NCBI RefSeq assembly: GCF_023913515.1 | Contig: NZ_CP099391.1 | Span: 3,596,001-3,660,000 of the forward strand | Direction: 5' to 3' | Length of the DNA: 64,000 nt | Source: Natronococcus sp. CG52 | Lineage (GTDB): Archaea; Halobacteriota; Halobacteria; Halobacteriales; Natrialbaceae | Shown here: in pieces, positions 1 to 7,869 of the stretch | How the letters are laid out: every line of letters starts with the position of its first letter | Numbering within the stretch: the stretch's first letter is position 1 | Translations under genes and position numbers: made by a program | Notes under the pieces: generated by a model | Told to the model about the DNA's origin: nothing | Databases searched by the model: none | What the model saw: only the letters and a program-made list of their open reading frames with translations

Positions 1-636
1 CTCGGCCGAGTCGGCAAGTGGCCCCTCGAGCCAGTAGGCCTCCTCGGTCATCTGAAGCGACGTCTCCAGTACCTGTTCGTCGGTGTAGGTCCCCGTCTCG
101 TACTCGACGACGACCTCGACGACGGTTCCGATCGTTCCGATGCCGTCGAACTCCTCCTTAAGTTCCGTCTGCCGGTCGCGGGCGGCCTCGACGTCGATCG
201 TCGTCTCGGAACTGGCGACACCGTCCTCGACGGACGCCGACGTCCGTGACCGCTGGTCGGTTTCCTCCCAGAAGACCGACCCGTCGCGTTCCGCCTCGTG
301 ATGGACTCGTACTTCGTGTGTAACCGTCGTCTCGTCGGTCGGGACGGACGTCTCGGGCGTGAGCGTCAACTCGGGTGTCGCAGACAGGACGTAGACCGGG
401 CTATCCTCGAGTTCCGTCCCCTCGTCCCAGGGGCTGTCCTCGACGACGACGGCGCTCGTCGTCGTCTCGGTCGCGATCGACTCCCGGTCGACCTCCTGGG
501 TAGTCATCGATGTCGACGGCGTGGCGGCGACCCAGCCGGTCGCGACGAGCGCGAGGATGCCCATCCCCACGAGTAAAATGGTGAGCGCGCGGCCGTGCTC
601 CGCGATCAACAGATCCAGCCGCGGGTTCTCGATCAC
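1..636 (-). CDS. DUF5305-like membrane-anchored protein, C-terminus cut by window edge
   Basis: This reading frame is open from a GTG at 636 to the window edge (212 codons), so the C-terminus is missing. I chose the GTG because a purine-rich GGGGGAG stretch lies just upstream and the residues that follow make a sensible N-terminus: a short charged segment, then one hydrophobic helix (about residues 17-35). The rest is acidic and rich in Thr, Ser and Glu with beta-like patterning, as expected for an extracellular domain. In haloarchaea, DUF5305-family proteins commonly sit beside a signal peptidase I gene, as here (166 bases downstream of it, same strand). The family name is from memory of that context. 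Function is unknown; a role in assembling or anchoring the exported proteins of this cluster is inference. Confidence 0.6.
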   Translation of the reverse strand, partial: MIENPRLDLLIAEHGRALTILLVGMGILALVATGWVAATPSTSMTTQEVDRESIATETTTSAVVVEDSPWDEGTELEDSPVYVLSATPELTLTPETSVPTDETTVTHEVRVHHEAERDGSVFWEETDQRSRTSASVEDGVASSETTIDVEAARDRQTELKEEFDGIGTIGTVVEVVVEYETGTYTDEQVLETSLQMTEEAYWLEGPLADSAE

Positions 637-801
637 GCCTCTCCCCCCGGAGTGTGATGCCGTTTGCTCGCATACCCCCTCCCTCGAGCCGTCTCCGAAC
701 GGAAAGTTCGGATGACGGAACAGTTCATACGAACATTCAGTATATCAAATACTATAACAGTAGTGGTTCCACCCCGTCTGTGTCGCCGTTACACGCCCCT
801 C

Positions 802-1971
802 TCAGCGCCACCGTCGAAGTCGCCGCCGAATTCGTGTCGAGAAGGGGACGTGATCACCGGCGGTGCGGATCCGGAAGTCGCTCCGTCCGAACAGGAGGAG
901 CGTCGTCCCGACGACGAGACCGACGACGACCAGGTCGACGGCGGCGATCGCGAAGAGGGGGTGGACGCCGTGCAACCAGACGAGCACCGACGGCGGGAGC
1001 ACGGCGAGATACCGATACTCTCCGAGGTGACGACTGTACTCGCCGGTCGACTCCGGCGCGGACAGCGACAGCGTCGTCTCGCTACTGTCACGAGGACCGA
1101 CCGTCTGCCAGTGCAGGTCGCTCTCGACGCCACTACTCTCGGCCTCGTGGACGACGACGACCGGAACGTAGCCCGCGTTGTCGACGGTTCGAGTCAGTTC
1201 GGCGGTCTCACCCGGGGCGAGGACCTGCGGATCGTCGGTCGGTGACTCCGTGCTCACGACCGCGTACTCGTACGTACCCGCGGGAACCACCATCGCCGCC
1301 GTCGCGAGTCCCACGACCACGAACAGCACCAGCGCGATCGTCCCCCAGAAGGCGTAGACGTTCTCTCGAGACGTCGACCGCGTCGTGTCGCGTCTGTGCG
1401 GTCCCGCGTGATCGAGGAGGAACCCGACCCCGAACAGCGAGATCCCCAGCGCGACCAGCATCGCTCCGAGGTTGTCGCCCTCGAGCGCCGTCGTGATGCC
1501 GAGGGCCGAGGCGACCAGTCCGTACCCCGACTCCATCGCGCCGTGGACGGCCATGATTGCGGTTCCGAGGTGGGGAATCGTCACGACATCGCCGTTCACC
1601 TGCCAGGCGGCGGCGACGATCTGGCCCTCCGTCACCGGCGGCTCGCCGCCGTCCTGGTCGGTGAACGGATTCGCGTCCCCTTTCGTGACGTACCCCGCGT
1701 CCGTCTCGCCGACGATCCGGTGGGTCGTGAGCCCGCCGTCGTGGAGCTCTCGAGCGTCGAACACCGCGACGTCGCCCTCGCTCGGCGAGCCGGTCACCGC
1801 GCTCGGAATCGCGACGAAGCCGTCGCCGGCGTCCATCGCCGGCTCCATGCTCCCCGTCGCGACGTAGCCGAGCAGGATCGGCTGGCCGAGTAGCTGGCCG
1901 AGAACGAGCAGGAGGACGGCGAGCGCGACGGCGACGGCTAGCCCCCGTTTGACGAGCCCCGTCGTTGTCAT
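802..1971 (-). CDS. Archaeal/SipW-type signal peptidase I with long C-terminal extension
   Basis: Membrane serine protease (S26B) that cleaves signal peptides outside the membrane. An N-terminal helix (about residues 8-32) is followed by the catalytic motif TGSMEPAM with Ser41, then TTHRIVGE with His84 and KGDANPF with Asp99. This Ser/His/Asp layout replaces the bacterial Lys and is typical of archaeal, ER and SipW enzymes. At 389 aa it is about twice the usual size. After residue 130 there are further membrane segments (around 150-185 and 205-235), an extracytoplasmic beta-rich domain (about 240-320), another helix pair (about 325-360) and a very basic tail. It sits between genes for exported proteins, so I infer it is dedicated to them. 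The protease assignment is firm; the function of the extension is unknown. Confidence 0.9.
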   Translation of the reverse strand: MTTTGLVKRGLAVAVALAVLLLVLGQLLGQPILLGYVATGSMEPAMDAGDGFVAIPSAVTGSPSEGDVAVFDARELHDGGLTTHRIVGETDAGYVTKGDANPFTDQDGGEPPVTEGQIVAAAWQVNGDVVTIPHLGTAIMAVHGAMESGYGLVASALGITTALEGDNLGAMLVALGISLFGVGFLLDHAGPHRRDTTRSTSRENVYAFWGTIALVLFVVVGLATAAMVVPAGTYEYAVVSTESPTDDPQVLAPGETAELTRTVDNAGYVPVVVVHEAESSGVESDLHWQTVGPRDSSETTLSLSAPESTGEYSRHLGEYRYLAVLPPSVLVWLHGVHPLFAIAAVDLVVVGLVVGTTLLLFGRSDFRIRTAGDHVPFSTRIRRRLRRWR

Positions 1972-2034
1972 GTGTCGCCTCGAGAGAGTATCATGGTCGA
2001 ATACCGGTACGAGTCTCGAAATGAATTCGAACCA

Positions 2035-3204
2035 TTATAAATTCCGCCGCCGCCTGACGGTTCCCGCGGCGAACAGGAGCCCGACCAGTGCGGGTGGCCC
2101 GACGACAGCGGCCACGGCGGGGTCGAGCTCCCGGTTCAGCACCTCGTACCCGGCGGATTCGTCGACGCTGACGGTGCCCGCCTCGAGTCCGCTAACGGCA
2201 ACCGCGTACGTTCCGGGCTCGTCGAACTGCCGCTCGAAGCGTACCGTCCTCGATTCGTTCGGCTCGAGTTCGACGTACCGATCCTCGACGACGATTCCGC
2301 CGACGGCGAGTTCGGCGAGGAACTCGCCGGACGCGTTGCCGGCGTTCTCGACCGTGGCGATGACGCGCGTCGATTCGCCCTGGGCGATGGTGTCGTCCTC
2401 GAGATGGGCTTCGGTCACGTCGAAGTCCGGCGCGGGTTCGTCGAGTGGCTGGACGGTGATCGTCGTCGGGTTGCGGTCGTCGACGCCGACTCCGAACGTG
2501 CCAGCCCGCTGCATCGTCCGTTCGAAGGTGACCGTTTCGGTCTCGCCGACCCCGACGTAGACGACCTTCTCGTCGACGACGACGCCGTCGACGGTCAGTC
2601 GAGCGACTGTCGTTCCGCCCGTGTCGCCGTGATTCTCGTAGGTCGCCCGCACCGTCAGCGTCTCGCCGGCGGTGACGGTCCGATCGACGGTCGTCATTTC
2701 GACGAGTTCGATGTCGGCGTTCCCTTCATCGTCGTCATCTTCGTACTCGACGTGAACTGAGAAGGTCTCGCTCGAGGGCGTCTCGGCGTGGGTGTCGATT
2801 TCGACGCCGACGGTTGTTGTTTCACCTGCGGTTGGCTCGAGCGGCGTCGTCTCGTCGATTACGACATCGGGATCGCTATTCTGGTAGAACTGCACGCCGG
2901 TGGGGCCGTCGGTCAGCCATACCTGTTCGACCGAATCGTCGGTAACAGTAATCGCGAAGACGTCCTTGAAGGTTGACTTCGCACGGTCGTTGAGGCCGTC
3001 GAAGTCGAGGACGAGTTCGCCGTTTTCGACGCTTGCATACTGGCCGTTCCCAAAGGATGTGGGGGCGAGTTCAACGTGGTCCGTTCGGTCAGGTTCGGAA
3101 CCTGTGTCAGTGATGCTGACAGCCCCTGTAGGGATGACAAGAAAGGCGGTTAGGGCGATTGCCGTGATCGCAGGAATTGCGGCGGCGATAAGGGGATGTC
3201 GCAT
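2035..3204 (-). CDS. Exported, C-terminally anchored protein with DUF1102-like and CARDB-like domains
   Basis: The 389-aa product starts with a signal peptide or N-terminal helix (about residues 5-28). A DUF1102-like segment follows (about 45-170; it includes the pattern VLDFDGLNDRAKSTFKDVF). Two beta-sandwich repeats come next (about 170-260 and 265-350), each with a CARDB-like pattern of VTAGET/IAQGES, V..TYEN/V..TVENAG and a FERT/FERQF..PGTY strand pair. A single helix (about 362-382) and the basic tail RRRRNL end the protein, which suggests an anchor with most of the chain outside the cell. It lies 89 bases downstream of the short SipW-type protein and 63 bases upstream of the peptidase gene on the same strand. 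I infer a surface-anchored subunit or adaptor. Confidence 0.75.
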   Translation of the reverse strand: MRHPLIAAAIPAITAIALTAFLVIPTGAVSITDTGSEPDRTDHVELAPTSFGNGQYASVENGELVLDFDGLNDRAKSTFKDVFAITVTDDSVEQVWLTDGPTGVQFYQNSDPDVVIDETTPLEPTAGETTTVGVEIDTHAETPSSETFSVHVEYEDDDDEGNADIELVEMTTVDRTVTAGETLTVRATYENHGDTGGTTVARLTVDGVVVDEKVVYVGVGETETVTFERTMQRAGTFGVGVDDRNPTTITVQPLDEPAPDFDVTEAHLEDDTIAQGESTRVIATVENAGNASGEFLAELAVGGIVVEDRYVELEPNESRTVRFERQFDEPGTYAVAVSGLEAGTVSVDESAGYEVLNRELDPAVAAVVGPPALVGLLFAAGTVRRRRNL

Positions 3205-3292
3205 TTGCGGTTACTTGTCTTATCTCTTCTTCCCTGTTATCCAACGATTGAAATCGATTGTCGATGATTCGGTGTCAACTGTTCTACTGAAG

Positions 3293-3889
3293 TTACACCC
3301 CATCAGTTCCGTTCGCTGTAATAGTGATACTTGCATTTACTTCACCAGCGGTATCGAGAGTGTGATTCTGTAGATCTATCGCGATACCGAACGCAACAGT
3401 TTCACCTGGGGCGAGAAGTTCTGAATTGGTAGCACCATCGCTTATCGTATTATTCTCTGTCGGAAATGGGTCTTGATTGCTACTGGATCCAAATCCATTC
3501 TCAGGGATGGCTGTAATCGCATCTTTGTCGTCCCCAGAATAATTGAATTCGATGTTTCTAATGTCAACACCATTAGTGCTATCGGTGTTGTTGGTAATGT
3601 TAATCAATTCAACAAACCTCGTCTCCGCATTCGCATTGATACCATCCTCACCATCCGTCCCGATATCAATGTCAACTGTTGCTACTTCCTGTTCAGTAGT
3701 TGTTGTCACGAATTGGTTGTCGTCCCCCGCCTGTGAAAGGCCCAAGTAAGCCGAACTATCGCCCTCTATATTGACGTCTATAGACCGATTAGCATCCACC
3801 TGACTAAACGCCCCCGTTCCGAGCGCGGCGCCGCTGCCCACGACGATCGTTCCCAGTCCGACTAACACGTTGCGTCGATTCAATTTCAT
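3293..3889 (-). CDS. SipW-type signal-peptide protein, DUF1102-like (possible fibre subunit)
   Basis: I start at the ATG at 3889 rather than an in-frame ATG 27 bases upstream (3916), because AAAGAA precedes it and the protein then begins MKLNRRNVLVGLG, a basic twin-Arg stretch followed by a Gly/Ala-rich hydrophobic core ending GTGAFSQVDA. That layout matches the signal peptides of SipW-processed camelysin/TasA-like proteins. The mature part (about 170 aa) starts with RSIDVNIEGDSSAYLGL and is beta-rich, Asn/Asp/Thr-rich and without cysteine. The same opening pattern recurs in the product of 4762-5628. Local GC is lower than in flanking housekeeping genes, which may indicate transfer or relaxed constraint. 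A role as an exported filament or matrix subunit is inference. Confidence 0.75.
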   Translation of the reverse strand: MKLNRRNVLVGLGTIVVGSGAALGTGAFSQVDANRSIDVNIEGDSSAYLGLSQAGDDNQFVTTTTEQEVATVDIDIGTDGEDGINANAETRFVELINITNNTDSTNGVDIRNIEFNYSGDDKDAITAIPENGFGSSSNQDPFPTENNTISDGATNSELLAPGETVAFGIAIDLQNHTLDTAGEVNASITITANGTDGV

Positions 3890-4116
3890 TGGTTCTTTCT
3901 CCGTTGTGACCCGCACCGCGATCGTAGGCGTCGATTACGATCTGCGGCCGGTTCTTACTCACACCCTGTTATGCCACCCCCTTTGTATTAGGCCACCAGA
4001 ACGACTACACGCCGACCGATACCTACGTTCAAGCTCGGTGTGAAAGACTCGAATCGTGGATAGTGGAGCCAGGAACCGAATCATGAACGCTTCTCTCGGT
4101 CATTCGCGGCAACAAA

Positions 4117-4150
4117 GACTATATATCAGAGATTATTACATTCATGAATA
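4117..4150 (+). promoter_or_regulatory. Candidate promoter of the DUF7344 regulator gene
   Basis: The 272-base gap between divergent starts at 3889 and 4162 contains a TATA-like box, ATATATC, at 4121-4127. It lies about 35-40 bases before the ATG at 4162, which predicts a very short leader. The gap must also hold the promoter of the minus-strand export operon, for which I see no clear box. Assignment rests on position and composition only. Confidence 0.4.
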
Positions 4151-4161
4151 AGGACATCTGA

Positions 4162-4755
4162 ATGGCGACAGAACAACACAGTAGCAGTGCTCCTACCAAG
4201 ACTCTTGAAGATGACGTGGACAGTGGCGACAGCGGTAGTCGAACTGATCGAGGTGAAATTTTCGACCTCCTCAGTAATCACCGCCGCCGTTACACCATCC
4301 ACTACTGCAAGCGCGAGAACGGTCCCGTCGAACTTGGAGACCTCGCGGAACATGTCGCCGCTTGGGAACTCGACAAGGAGATCGAGGGGTTGACCTCGGC
4401 CGAACGAAAGCGAGTCTATACGTCCTTACAGCAGACCCATCTGCCCACGCTCGAGAAAGCAAATATGGTCGAGTTCGACAACCGGACGATCGAACTCACC
4501 GATCAGGCGTCTGACCTCGAAGTGTATCTCGATATTGTCCCTGGCGATTCGATCCCGTGGGGGGTGTACTACCTCGGGCTTTCCGCTATCGGGTTCGCTG
4601 TGATGGGCGGACTCTGGATGGAATGGATTCCAACCGAGACGCTCCCTGTACTCGGCTGGGCGACGCTCTCGATTGCTCTGTTCGCCGCGTCTGCAGTCAT
4701 TCACGTTTTCCAGAACCGGAAGCTTCGGCTTGGGGAGACGGAACAGCCGCCGTAA
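4162..4755 (+). CDS. DUF7344-type winged-helix regulator with C-terminal membrane helices
   Basis: The 197-aa product has an N-terminal disordered segment (residues 1-30), then EIFDLLSNHRRRYTIHYC and a winged-helix domain (about 31-120), the pattern of the haloarchaeal DUF7344 family. Two hydrophobic helices follow (about 133-152 and 160-182), so the DNA-binding part is probably tethered to the inner face of the membrane. The gene is divergent from the signal-peptidase operon and ends 6 bases before the next gene, which suggests co-transcription with that secreted protein. I infer local regulation of the export cluster, perhaps in response to a membrane or surface signal. The family is a confident call; targets and signal are unknown. 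Confidence 0.75.
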   Translation: MATEQHSSSAPTKTLEDDVDSGDSGSRTDRGEIFDLLSNHRRRYTIHYCKRENGPVELGDLAEHVAAWELDKEIEGLTSAERKRVYTSLQQTHLPTLEKANMVEFDNRTIELTDQASDLEVYLDIVPGDSIPWGVYYLGLSAIGFAVMGGLWMEWIPTETLPVLGWATLSIALFAASAVIHVFQNRKLRLGETEQPP

Positions 4756-4761
4756 GTTGTC

Positions 4762-5628
4762 ATGACACGAAACCCGATTCGAACCCTCGCGATCATCTGC
4801 CTCGCTCTTGGAGCGGTGCTACTCGCAGGACCAGCGTTCGGGTTCGACACGATCACAGCCGATCGTAGTGTCAGTGTCAACGTCGTCGACGACCCGAATG
4901 CGTACCTCGGAATCGATGCGCAGGACAACATCGGTGAACTCGCTGGAAACGACGATCCGACCGAGATCGCCACGCTGACGAATAACATAGACGAGCAAGC
5001 TGAAATCGACATTACGGTAGAAGAGATCCCCGACGGAAATGAGAGCGTTCTGTACGCGGACACAGATAACCTCAACCTCAATTCTGGCGAGTCGACGACT
5101 GCCAAGGTCGAATGTGCCCAGCCAGAGAGTCTTGGTGAACAGGATGTCGTCTTCCGGACCGAAGCGACCGGCTCCTCGGTTTCGATCACTGACGCCACGT
5201 TCACCGTGACAATCGACATACAGTGTGGAAAAGGCGGTGGCAACGTCGAACCGACCGATTCGGGGCTTAGTGGTGTGTCCGTTACCGATATGGATCTCGA
5301 TGAAACCAATGAGAGTCAGATAATCGAGTTTGCAGTTACGGAAGATCTCCCTACAAATGAAACTGTGACAGTCACACTGGCTCAGGTTAATCAGATAGAT
5401 TATAGCGGCGCTACGCTGAGCAACAATGCCACCGGAAGTATTCAAGGCGACAGTTACGAAGTTGAATTTAATCGCGAAGAGACGATCTCGGCCCGCGAAA
5501 CGGTGACGATTGCGATCGACCGAATCGATACGACACACAACAACGCCGACGGAGATTACGACGCAGAATTCGAGCGAAGCGACAAAGACGATCCCGAGCT
5601 ACTGGAGCCAGCTTTCACAGTCGAGTAA
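4762..5628 (+). CDS. Secreted DUF1102-like beta-rich protein (second possible fibre component)
   Basis: A 288-aa protein with a signal peptide (residues 1-28, core LAIICLALGAVLLAGPAFGF). The mature N-terminus carries RSVSVNVVDDPNAYLGI, closely matching the opening of the product of 3293-3889, so the two are likely related subunits. A second half starts after a Gly-rich linker with one Cys (around residue 155) and is acidic and beta-rich. Another Cys lies near residue 115, so one disulfide is possible. It follows the DUF7344 gene after 6 bases. No C-terminal anchor is visible. I infer an exported surface or matrix protein processed by the nearby peptidase. No enzymatic motif is seen. Confidence 0.65.
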   Translation: MTRNPIRTLAIICLALGAVLLAGPAFGFDTITADRSVSVNVVDDPNAYLGIDAQDNIGELAGNDDPTEIATLTNNIDEQAEIDITVEEIPDGNESVLYADTDNLNLNSGESTTAKVECAQPESLGEQDVVFRTEATGSSVSITDATFTVTIDIQCGKGGGNVEPTDSGLSGVSVTDMDLDETNESQIIEFAVTEDLPTNETVTVTLAQVNQIDYSGATLSNNATGSIQGDSYEVEFNREETISARETVTIAIDRIDTTHNNADGDYDAEFERSDKDDPELLEPAFTVE

Positions 5629-5726: not shown

Positions 5727-6053
5727 ATGTCGACCGAATCGATTAGTGACCGGCGCGAGCACGTCCGCTCGATCAGCGTGACGGCGCTGTCCGCGCTGCT
5801 CGGCGTCGGCGCGGCGTTCGCCTCCGCGGTGATCACCGGCGACGCTGCGACGGCCGCCGAGGCGGCGACCGACACCCGAGCGCTGTTGGTCGTAGTGGGT
5901 GCGATCCTCGCCCAATTCGTCCTCTTCGACTTTACGAGCATCTACGGCGAGGACGAGTTCGGCGTGAAACACTACCTGTTCATCACGTTCATGACCTTCT
6001 CGTTCTGGTTCGTGGTGTGGGGCATCCTCCTCACGACGGAGGCAATGACGTAA
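5727..6053 (+). CDS. EMC6-like small membrane protein
   Basis: 108 aa with three predicted membrane helices (about residues 18-40, 50-68 and 82-102) and a short charged N-terminus. Size, helix pattern and position directly before the RLI gene match the haloarchaeal proteins annotated as EMC6-like. The eukaryotic relative is part of the ER membrane insertase complex. Its TAA stop at 6051-6053 lies one base before the ATG of RLI at 6055, so the two genes are almost certainly co-transcribed. A role in membrane-protein insertion is inferred from the family name; there is no catalytic motif. The start at 5727 is the first Met and leaves a short leader. Confidence 0.7.
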   Translation: MSTESISDRREHVRSISVTALSALLGVGAAFASAVITGDAATAAEAATDTRALLVVVGAILAQFVLFDFTSIYGEDEFGVKHYLFITFMTFSFWFVVWGILLTTEAMT

Positions 6054-6054
6054 G

Positions 6055-7869
6055 ATGGCGGACGACAGCATCGCCGTCGTAGACTTAGATCGGTGCCAGC
6101 CGGACCGGTGTAGCTACGAGTGCAAGAACTACTGCCCGCCGAACCGCACCGGAAAGGAGTGTATCACCCTGCGAGGCGACGAGACGCCCCAGGGGCAGCC
6201 GGATCAGGTGCACATCTCCGAGGAGATCTGTCTCGGCGAAACCTGTGGGATCTGCGTCGAGAAGTGCCCCTTCGACGCGATCGAGATCATCAACCTCCCG
6301 CAGGAACTGCAGGACGATCCCGTCCACCGCTACGGCGAGAACGCGTTCTCCCTCTACGGACTCCCCGCGCCCCAGGAGGGGAAAGTCACGGGTATCCTCG
6401 GACCGAACGGGATCGGGAAGACGACGGCCGTCCGCATCCTCGCGGGCGACCTCGAGCCCAACCTCGGCCGCCACGACGAGGACGTCGGCTGGGACGACGT
6501 GCTCGAGGCCTACCGCGGAACCGAACTCCAGGATTACATCGCCGACGTCCGGGACAGCGAGGTGACCGTCGCCCAGAAGCCCCAGTACGTCGACCAGATT
6601 CCCGAGACGTTCGACGGCAACACGCGCGAACTGCTCGAGCGCACGGACGAGCGCGGCGCGCTCGACTCGCTGGTCGAACGGCTCTCGATCGGTCCCGTCA
6701 TGGAGCAGTCGATCGACGACCTCTCCGGCGGAGAGCTCCAGCGCGTTGCGATCGCCGCAACCCTGGCCAGGGATACGGACTTCTACTTCCTCGACGAGGT
6801 AACGCCGTATCTCGACATCGGGCAGCGAGTGACGGCCGCGCGGCTGATCCAGGAACTCGCCGAGGAGGAGGACAAGTCGATGCTCGTCGTCGAGCACGAC
6901 CTCGCGATCCTGGACCTGCTCGCGGACACGCTGCACGTCGCCTACGGTGAGCCCGGCGCCTACGGCGTGATCACCTCGCCGAAGTCCGTCCGCAACGGGA
7001 TCAACGAGTACCTCTCGGGCTACCTCGACAACGAGAACATGCGGATCCGACCGGATCCCATCGAGTTCGAGGAACACGCCCCGCGGTCCGCGACGCGCGG
7101 CGACGTGCTCGTCGACTACCCCGACCTCACGAAGAGCTACGGCGAGGGCGAGTTCAGCCTCGAGGTCGAGGGCGGCCAGATCCGCGAGAACGAGGTGCTC
7201 GGCATCGTCGGTCCCAACGGGATCGGGAAGTCGACGTTCGCGAAGCTGCTGACGGGCGACCTCGAGCTGGACGAGGGAGACGCGGATCTCGATCTGGACA
7301 TCTCGTACAAGCCCCAGTACGTCACCATCGACCAGCACATGCGGGTCGACGCCTTCCTCTCGTCGATCACGGACCAGTTCGGCTCCTCGTACTGGAACAC
7401 CGAGATCGCCCAGCCGCTCCAGTTAGAGCGCATCATGGAGCAGAACCTCTCGGACCTCTCCGGCGGTGAGCGCCAGCGGGTCGCCATCGCGGCCTGCCTG
7501 TCGGATTCCGCCGACCTCTACCTGCTCGACGAGCCGTCCGCACACCTCGACGTCGAACAGCGGGTGCAGGCGACGAGCGCGATCCGGCGCTACGCCGAAC
7601 AGCAGGACGCTACCGTGATGGTCATCGACCACGACATCTACATGATCGACCTGCTCGCCGACCGACTGATGGTCTTCGACGGCGAGCCCGCAGTTCGCGG
7701 CCGAGCCGGCCAGCCACAGCCGATGCGCGACGGGATGAACGAGTTCCTCGCGAACCTCGAGGTCACGTTCCGCCGGGACAAGCGGACGTCGCGTCCGCGG
7801 ATCAACAAGCCGGACTCACAGCTGGATCGCGAGCAAAAACGAGAGGGCGAGTACTACTACGCGCCCTGA
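6055..7869 (+). CDS. Ribosome recycling ATPase RLI/ABCE1
   Basis: Soluble twin-ABC ATPase that splits ribosomes after termination. The 604-aa chain begins with a ferredoxin-like region holding eight Fe-S cysteines (residues about 12-75; the second cluster includes CLGETCGICVEKCPFDA). ABC domain 1 has Walker A GPNGIGKTT (about residue 117) and signature LSGGELQR (about 223). ABC domain 2 has GPNGIGKST (about 389) and LSGGERQR (about 467). A hinge and C-terminal basic tail complete the family architecture. Length and all motifs are normal, so the call is secure. It lies directly after the EMC6-like gene, with one base between stop and start. Confidence 0.98.
   Translation: MADDSIAVVDLDRCQPDRCSYECKNYCPPNRTGKECITLRGDETPQGQPDQVHISEEICLGETCGICVEKCPFDAIEIINLPQELQDDPVHRYGENAFSLYGLPAPQEGKVTGILGPNGIGKTTAVRILAGDLEPNLGRHDEDVGWDDVLEAYRGTELQDYIADVRDSEVTVAQKPQYVDQIPETFDGNTRELLERTDERGALDSLVERLSIGPVMEQSIDDLSGGELQRVAIAATLARDTDFYFLDEVTPYLDIGQRVTAARLIQELAEEEDKSMLVVEHDLAILDLLADTLHVAYGEPGAYGVITSPKSVRNGINEYLSGYLDNENMRIRPDPIEFEEHAPRSATRGDVLVDYPDLTKSYGEGEFSLEVEGGQIRENEVLGIVGPNGIGKSTFAKLLTGDLELDEGDADLDLDISYKPQYVTIDQHMRVDAFLSSITDQFGSSYWNTEIAQPLQLERIMEQNLSDLSGGERQRVAIAACLSDSADLYLLDEPSAHLDVEQRVQATSAIRRYAEQQDATVMVIDHDIYMIDLLADRLMVFDGEPAVRGRAGQPQPMRDGMNEFLANLEVTFRRDKRTSRPRINKPDSQLDREQKREGEYYYAP

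Follow-up and report, generated by a model that had tools for sequence, protein, structure and literature searches.

What does the six-gene cluster at the start of a 64,000-nucleotide stretch of the haloarchaeon Natronococcus sp. CG52 build? We call the whole stretch the window (G000:C1:3596001-3660000) and give all coordinates as window positions. Four of the genes lie on the minus strand and two on the plus strand, as open reading frames at the coordinates given by an earlier reading made from the letters alone (the sequence-only reading), which had proposed a surface fibre of the SipW/TasA type known from Bacillus. Our answer keeps the fibre and changes its kind. Taf family models, synteny and the structure entry PDB 9P0A support a surface fibre with a main subunit (3293-3889), a second subunit (4762-5628), an anchor and a dedicated peptidase, and its closest known relative is the Tat-fimbriae system ("tafi"; Galeva et al., iScience 2025, 28:111793, as cited in a passage of PMC12687288) rather than SipW/TasA. 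We consider it probable that the locus is a tafi-type pilus cluster without TafA, that is, a known kind of system in variant form, and we include in this judgment the scheme of export and assembly proposed below; very probably, the products of the cluster form thin hairs of protein on the outside of the cell. We read it as tafi-type because the TafE and TafC models match the two secreted genes and because tafi loci of Haloarcula carry the same gene set.

The minus-strand gene at 3293-3889 encodes a Tat-exported protein of 198 amino acids (aa) that matches the NCBIfam model for TafE (NF052522) with 86 bits and E 1.7e-24, below the equivalog cut-off of 155, and also, again below cut-off, the N terminus of TafA in the same database. 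A family profile made from 66 relatives of this protein found PDB entry 9P0A, whose molecule is named "Pilin", at E 7.5e-19. Over the 186 residues compared in the alignment, 9P0A is 100% identical to the product of a gene in a genome of the window's own family (G054), which stands beside genes for a CARDB protein, a signal peptidase and a DUF5305 protein and opposite genes for DUF7344, TafC, EMC6 and ABCE1. The solved pilin thus occupies, in a syntenic locus, the slot of 3293-3889, and we take this window gene to encode the likely main subunit. The two proteins score similarly against the TafE model (77 bits for 9P0A, 86 for the window pilin) and have in common the slot, a Tat signal and the conserved opening FSSVEADRTVSV, whereas their overall sequence identity is low. 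The entry was deposited with three chains, and its source locus has the TafA-less layout; among plasmid records, none held a relative of the 9P0A pilin. By its place in the cluster, 3293-3889 corresponds to a pilin of known structure, and it is the likely filament subunit. Since the window genome has no TafA, it is also the best candidate for the shaft, despite the name "adapter" that NCBIfam gives to TafE.

The predicted structure of the pilin (predicted local distance difference test, pLDDT, 72) has ten beta strands, with residues 8-15 and 22-26 lying in strands, and its top fold matches are self-complemented FimA, 7ueg (archaeal bundling pili) and 7pnb (a Sulfolobus thread), at E 0.005-0.09. 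A comparison with both the TasA and AbpA folds had been suggested along with the sequence-only reading: AbpA did appear, as a weak neighbour, and TasA was absent from the top 50 matches. As the matches are donor-strand filaments, the donor-strand idea survives this comparison; the expected "TasA-like jelly-roll" is not shown by it.

The gene set itself is conserved well beyond the window. TafE scores above its cut-off in 20 of the 293 genomes sampled from the window's order. At locus L088, TafA (251 bits), TafC (568), TafE (225) and TafF (582) are neighbours and all exceed their cut-offs, and the other three genes encode DUF7344, an enlarged signal peptidase and DUF5305. The locus is from Haloarcula or a close relative, since its TafC and the TafC of Haloarcula amylolytica JCM 13557 share 92% identity. 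Read in gene order (A, DUF7344, C, peptidase; E, F; DUF5305), L088 suggests the names TafB, TafD and TafG for DUF7344, the peptidase and DUF5305, and by position the window's three genes are probably these as well. Among 59 compared loci, chosen for carrying a TafE-type gene, 46 contain all six families; the window's gene order beside EMC6 and ABCE1 recurs in about 50 related loci, most of which belong to the window's family, so that a neighbourhood search proposed earlier finds this order kept in dozens of genomes. Of 125 genomes in the family, 110 have a TafE-type gene, as do 189 of the 293 sampled from the order, and plasmid pNMAG01 of Natrialba magadii carries the same gene set. The window thus has the cluster context of tafi, with genes for DUF7344, an enlarged signal peptidase and DUF5305 standing with TafE-, TafC- and TafF-type genes. 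The window genome holds a single tafi-type locus and no TafA: only the TafE-type gene responds to that model, with 59 bits, below the cut-off of 190.

The number of TafE-type subunits varies widely between species, from one to several genes per locus in L068, L069 and L085-L099 up to seven TafE-labelled reading frames in L099. Several genomes of the window's genus (G087, G088, G090 and G091; L139-L146) carry a second, diverged type of cluster with a TafE-like gene, DUF5305, a signal peptidase, DUF7344 and a weak TafC (L140, L141, L142 and L144), which was not found in the window genome.

How the secreted proteins leave the cell separates this locus from the SipW/TasA type. The signal of the pilin (MKLNRRNVLVGLGTIVVGSGAALGTGAF; 3806-3889, minus strand, cleavage position approximate) is of the twin-arginine kind (MKLNRRNVLVG) and not, as had been supposed, SipW-type: the RR motif is present in 82 of 82 pilin-slot relatives (all with scores of at least 120 bits), the window genome encodes TatC, and a Tat signal on the fimbrial subunit is a feature of tafi. 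The second secreted protein (4762-5628, plus strand, 288 aa), which occupies the TafC slot, has a Sec-type signal without RR. In window-type loci 62 of 74 TafC-slot signals are Sec-like, eight carry RR and four are not assignable; in TafA-bearing loci all readable TafC signals carry RR, most of them as KKWTRR.

This second protein matches the TafC model (NF052521) with 43 bits and E 3.5e-11, below the cut-off of 410. Its structure is predicted as a tandem immunoglobulin-like (Ig-like) fold, with a first domain at pLDDT of about 90, and its fold matches are tandem-Ig proteins, many of them chaperones of the chaperone-usher pathway; homology to these chaperones was not accepted (TM-score about 0.3). 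The family conserves two cysteines at 90% or more, and the bodies of its members differ widely in size and sequence. We regard it as a putative initiator or cap, or as a second subunit. A second taf locus in the window genome was rejected, since the TafC matches elsewhere are only very weak (22 and 15 bits; L007/L008) and no cluster surrounds them (L105, L106). The corresponding gene of Natrialba magadii (L153:3880-4698) is annotated "polymer-forming cytoskeletal protein", a name that, given the Sec-type signal and the cluster context, we suggest is misleading.

What joins the two secreted proteins is the opening of their mature parts, a similarity that had been noticed by eye and that holds up statistically. 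In the pilin it comprises 27 residues from FSQVDANRSIDVNIEGDSSAYLGLS (3728-3808, minus strand), a putative donor strand; the motif recurs in the second protein from FGFDTITADRSVSVNVVDDPNAYLGID (4837-4923, plus strand). The pair aligns with a score of 94 against a shuffle mean of 52, a score reached by 2 of 3,000 shuffles, whereas the bodies without their first 27 residues score 42 against 48 for shuffles, that is, at chance. Profile comparison likewise confines the homology of the two families to mature residues 1-27 (E 2.8e-8, 27 columns). In both families no other 27-residue window is as conserved as the opening (0.61 vs 0.32, and 0.60 vs 0.24). The alignments behind these values were trimmed at the F...R motif, which fixes its two positions in advance, and some TafC-slot relatives were possibly recruited through the opening alone. 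The bodies look unrelated, a beta-sandwich pilin on one side and a tandem-Ig partner on the other. Passages of PMC9674648 describe the N terminus of TapA as resembling the donor strand of TasA, and they and parts of PMC10151520 present TapA, with an Ig fold that is complete already, as the starter of the TasA filament. By analogy with this arrangement, the TafC-slot protein may be a strand-donating initiator or cap.

From these results we infer a scheme in which an initiator starts donor-strand assembly, the linked peptidase cleaves both secreted proteins and DUF7344 acts as regulator. The pilin would be exported folded through Tat and the TafC-slot protein through Sec. The peptidase encoded at 802-1971 would trim both near the conserved (A/G)F...AxR stretch, freeing an N-terminal beta strand, and pilins would polymerise as each freed strand is donated to the next subunit. 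The Ig-like protein, which bears the same strand and whose own fold seems complete, would act at one end as nucleator or cap, as TapA does for TasA; the CARDB protein of the TafF slot (2035-3204) would anchor the fibre in the membrane, the DUF5305 protein would assist assembly, and DUF7344 would control expression. A more specific version is tentative and, to us, somewhat less likely than not to hold in full: a mixed-translocon pilus, with a shaft exported folded through Tat and a TapA-like Ig initiator exported unfolded through Sec, the two sharing one enlarged peptidase and one common donor strand, has replaced the TafA shaft in one haloarchaeal family.

Several points weigh against this account of a tafi-type pilus. 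Since TafA is absent and the Taf matches in the window all fall below their equivalog cut-offs, fibre formation by this strain is probable rather than proven, and NCBIfam names TafE an adapter rather than a shaft subunit. The E-values of the pilin fold search (0.005-0.09) are weak, 9P0A bears on the scheme through its sequence and gene position, and the pairing of peptidase with substrates, the anchoring and the regulation rest on gene linkage.

The absence of TafA is also the starting point of a different explanation, in which the shaft function was lost with it and what is left is a short surface adhesin or stalk complex, with the TafE-type protein as adapter, the CARDB protein as stalk and the TafC-type protein as display domain. 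The NCBIfam name of TafE fits this, as do the TafC-slot bodies, which vary in size and sequence like those of display proteins. We nevertheless think it improbable: the three-chain "Pilin" 9P0A comes from the same slot of a TafA-less locus, and several relatives have two or three TafE-type genes in tandem, which suits subunits better than a single adapter. A second alternative concerns the shared opening, which might be no donor strand but only a mark by which the dedicated signal peptidase, or a sorting step, recognises the protein. It directly follows the hydrophobic region in the Tat and the Sec protein alike and begins F...A.R, and the peptidase gene is nearly always linked. Even so, the conservation spans about 25 residues in an alternating V.V pattern, and signal peptidases usually read a shorter stretch; the pilin model, moreover, places residues 8-15 and 22-26 in strands, and the likeness of the TapA N terminus to the TasA donor strand, as parts of PMC9674648 report it, offers a parallel. 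This alternative is unlikely in our view, if the less so of the two.

Least plausible is a true SipW/TasA (camelysin) system as the sequence-only reading proposed. A linked archaeal or endoplasmic-reticulum-type signal peptidase, which such a system has, is found here and matches the SipW model at E 1e-6; the operon follows the same logic of peptidase, fibre protein and partner, and AbpA, called TasA-like in a passage of PMC9674648, is among the fold neighbours of the pilin. Against these stand the Tat rather than Sec signal of the pilin, the far better fit of the Taf families, and the fact that no TasA or camelysin relation of the fibre protein emerged in Pfam, NCBIfam, PDB sequences or the top fold matches.

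The remaining genes of the tafi-type cluster fit around the two secreted proteins. The gene at 802-1971 (minus strand) encodes an archaeal-type signal peptidase I (S26) of 389 aa with a conserved C-terminal membrane extension, as the description of an enlarged peptidase with S, H and D residues had it; TIGR02228 matches with 48.9 bits and E 6e-13, slightly under the cut-off of 51.85, and S41, H84, D99 and D105 belong to the positions that 56 relatives conserve at 95% or more. Its length is equal in Haloarcula tafi loci. We infer that it may cleave both secreted proteins because the genes are linked and a common sequence follows both signals. Residues of about 200-389 form a conserved membrane extension without a Pfam domain, in which E318, R320, Y321, P326, H334, H337 and P338 are at least 95% conserved in the same 56 relatives; with this extension, the enzyme may have a role beyond signal-peptide cleavage. 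Homology of the C-terminal half to DUF5305 was rejected (profile comparison probability 0.3%). The best named match is from Natrialba magadii (57%), and matches from Haloferacaceae reach 37-39%.

The TafF-slot protein (2035-3204, minus strand) has an N-terminal signal or transmembrane segment, CARDB repeats (PF07705, E 5e-13) and a C-terminal transmembrane anchor followed by a basic tail. The TafF model (NF052523, cut-off 420 bits) gave no match to it, and by profile comparison its first approximately 160 aa align with Haloarcula TafF at 99% probability (E 3.9e-18). It had been described as an anchored DUF1102/CARDB-like protein: CARDB and anchor are confirmed, and DUF1102 is dropped, with no Pfam match at E ≤ 1. 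For the short secreted protein DUF1102 is at best a trace: it touches 3 of the 66 relatives, with a best E of 0.001. In another haloarchaeal family, a TafF-slot protein (L102:9419-10549) combines a TafF-like N terminus with a PGF-CTERM (ArtA-type) sorting signal, a combination that fits a surface-anchor role for this slot.

The DUF5305 membrane protein identified earlier is supported by PF17231 (E 1.5e-47). Its gene is cut by the window start, so that 1-636 (minus strand) holds the 5' part, 212 of 377 codons with two transmembrane segments, and the full 377-aa gene (L003:13503-14636) has its remainder upstream of the window. Present in nearly all syntenic loci, Haloarcula tafi loci included, it encodes a putative assembly factor. 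DUF7344 (4162-4755, plus strand; PF24035, E 4.8e-29) is a predicted winged-helix regulator with a C-terminal transmembrane segment, and LSNxRRRY and other residues are conserved in 55 relatives. Its proposed coupling to the second secreted gene agrees with a start of the latter just 6 bases past it. The roles given to DUF5305 and DUF7344 are provisional. A promoter scan returned nothing, with bacterial models that are not informative for archaea. Genes for an EMC6-type protein and ABCE1 (RNase L inhibitor) adjoin the cluster at 5727-7869; they are constant neighbours in most genomes of the family and unrelated in function.

In this way a large set of unannotated loci gains a link to tafi and to a pilin of solved structure, with a testable role for each gene. 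If the shared-strand model is true, archaea too use the TasA/TapA logic of a subunit and an Ig-type strand donor, here with a shaft exported through Tat. This would bear on two questions: how donor-strand pili start without a chaperone, and how substrates of Tat and of Sec come together outside the cell.

Among known systems, the bundling pili of Pyrobaculum (AbpA, 7UEG) and the Sulfolobus threads (7PNB) are donor-strand filaments and fold neighbours of the pilin model, but the similarity is weak (E 0.07-0.09) and no common gene cluster was shown. TapA-SipW-TasA of Bacillus subtilis resembles the window in its linked special signal peptidase and, according to passages of PMC9674648 and PMC10151520, in pairing a main fibre protein with an Ig-fold partner that has only the N-terminal strand in common with it. 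It differs in that no sequence relation of the fibre proteins was found and the window's main subunit uses Tat, and tapA-sipW-tasA contains nothing that corresponds to the TafF, DUF5305 and DUF7344 genes. From the canonical tafi of Haloarcula, the window departs in having no TafA, TafE and TafC scores below the cut-offs and no TafF model match, a Sec-type signal on the TafC-slot protein, CARDB repeats in the TafF-slot protein and a different gene order. It shares with tafi the TafE-, TafC- and TafF-type genes, DUF7344, the enlarged signal peptidase and DUF5305, as well as the Tat signal on the main secreted protein.

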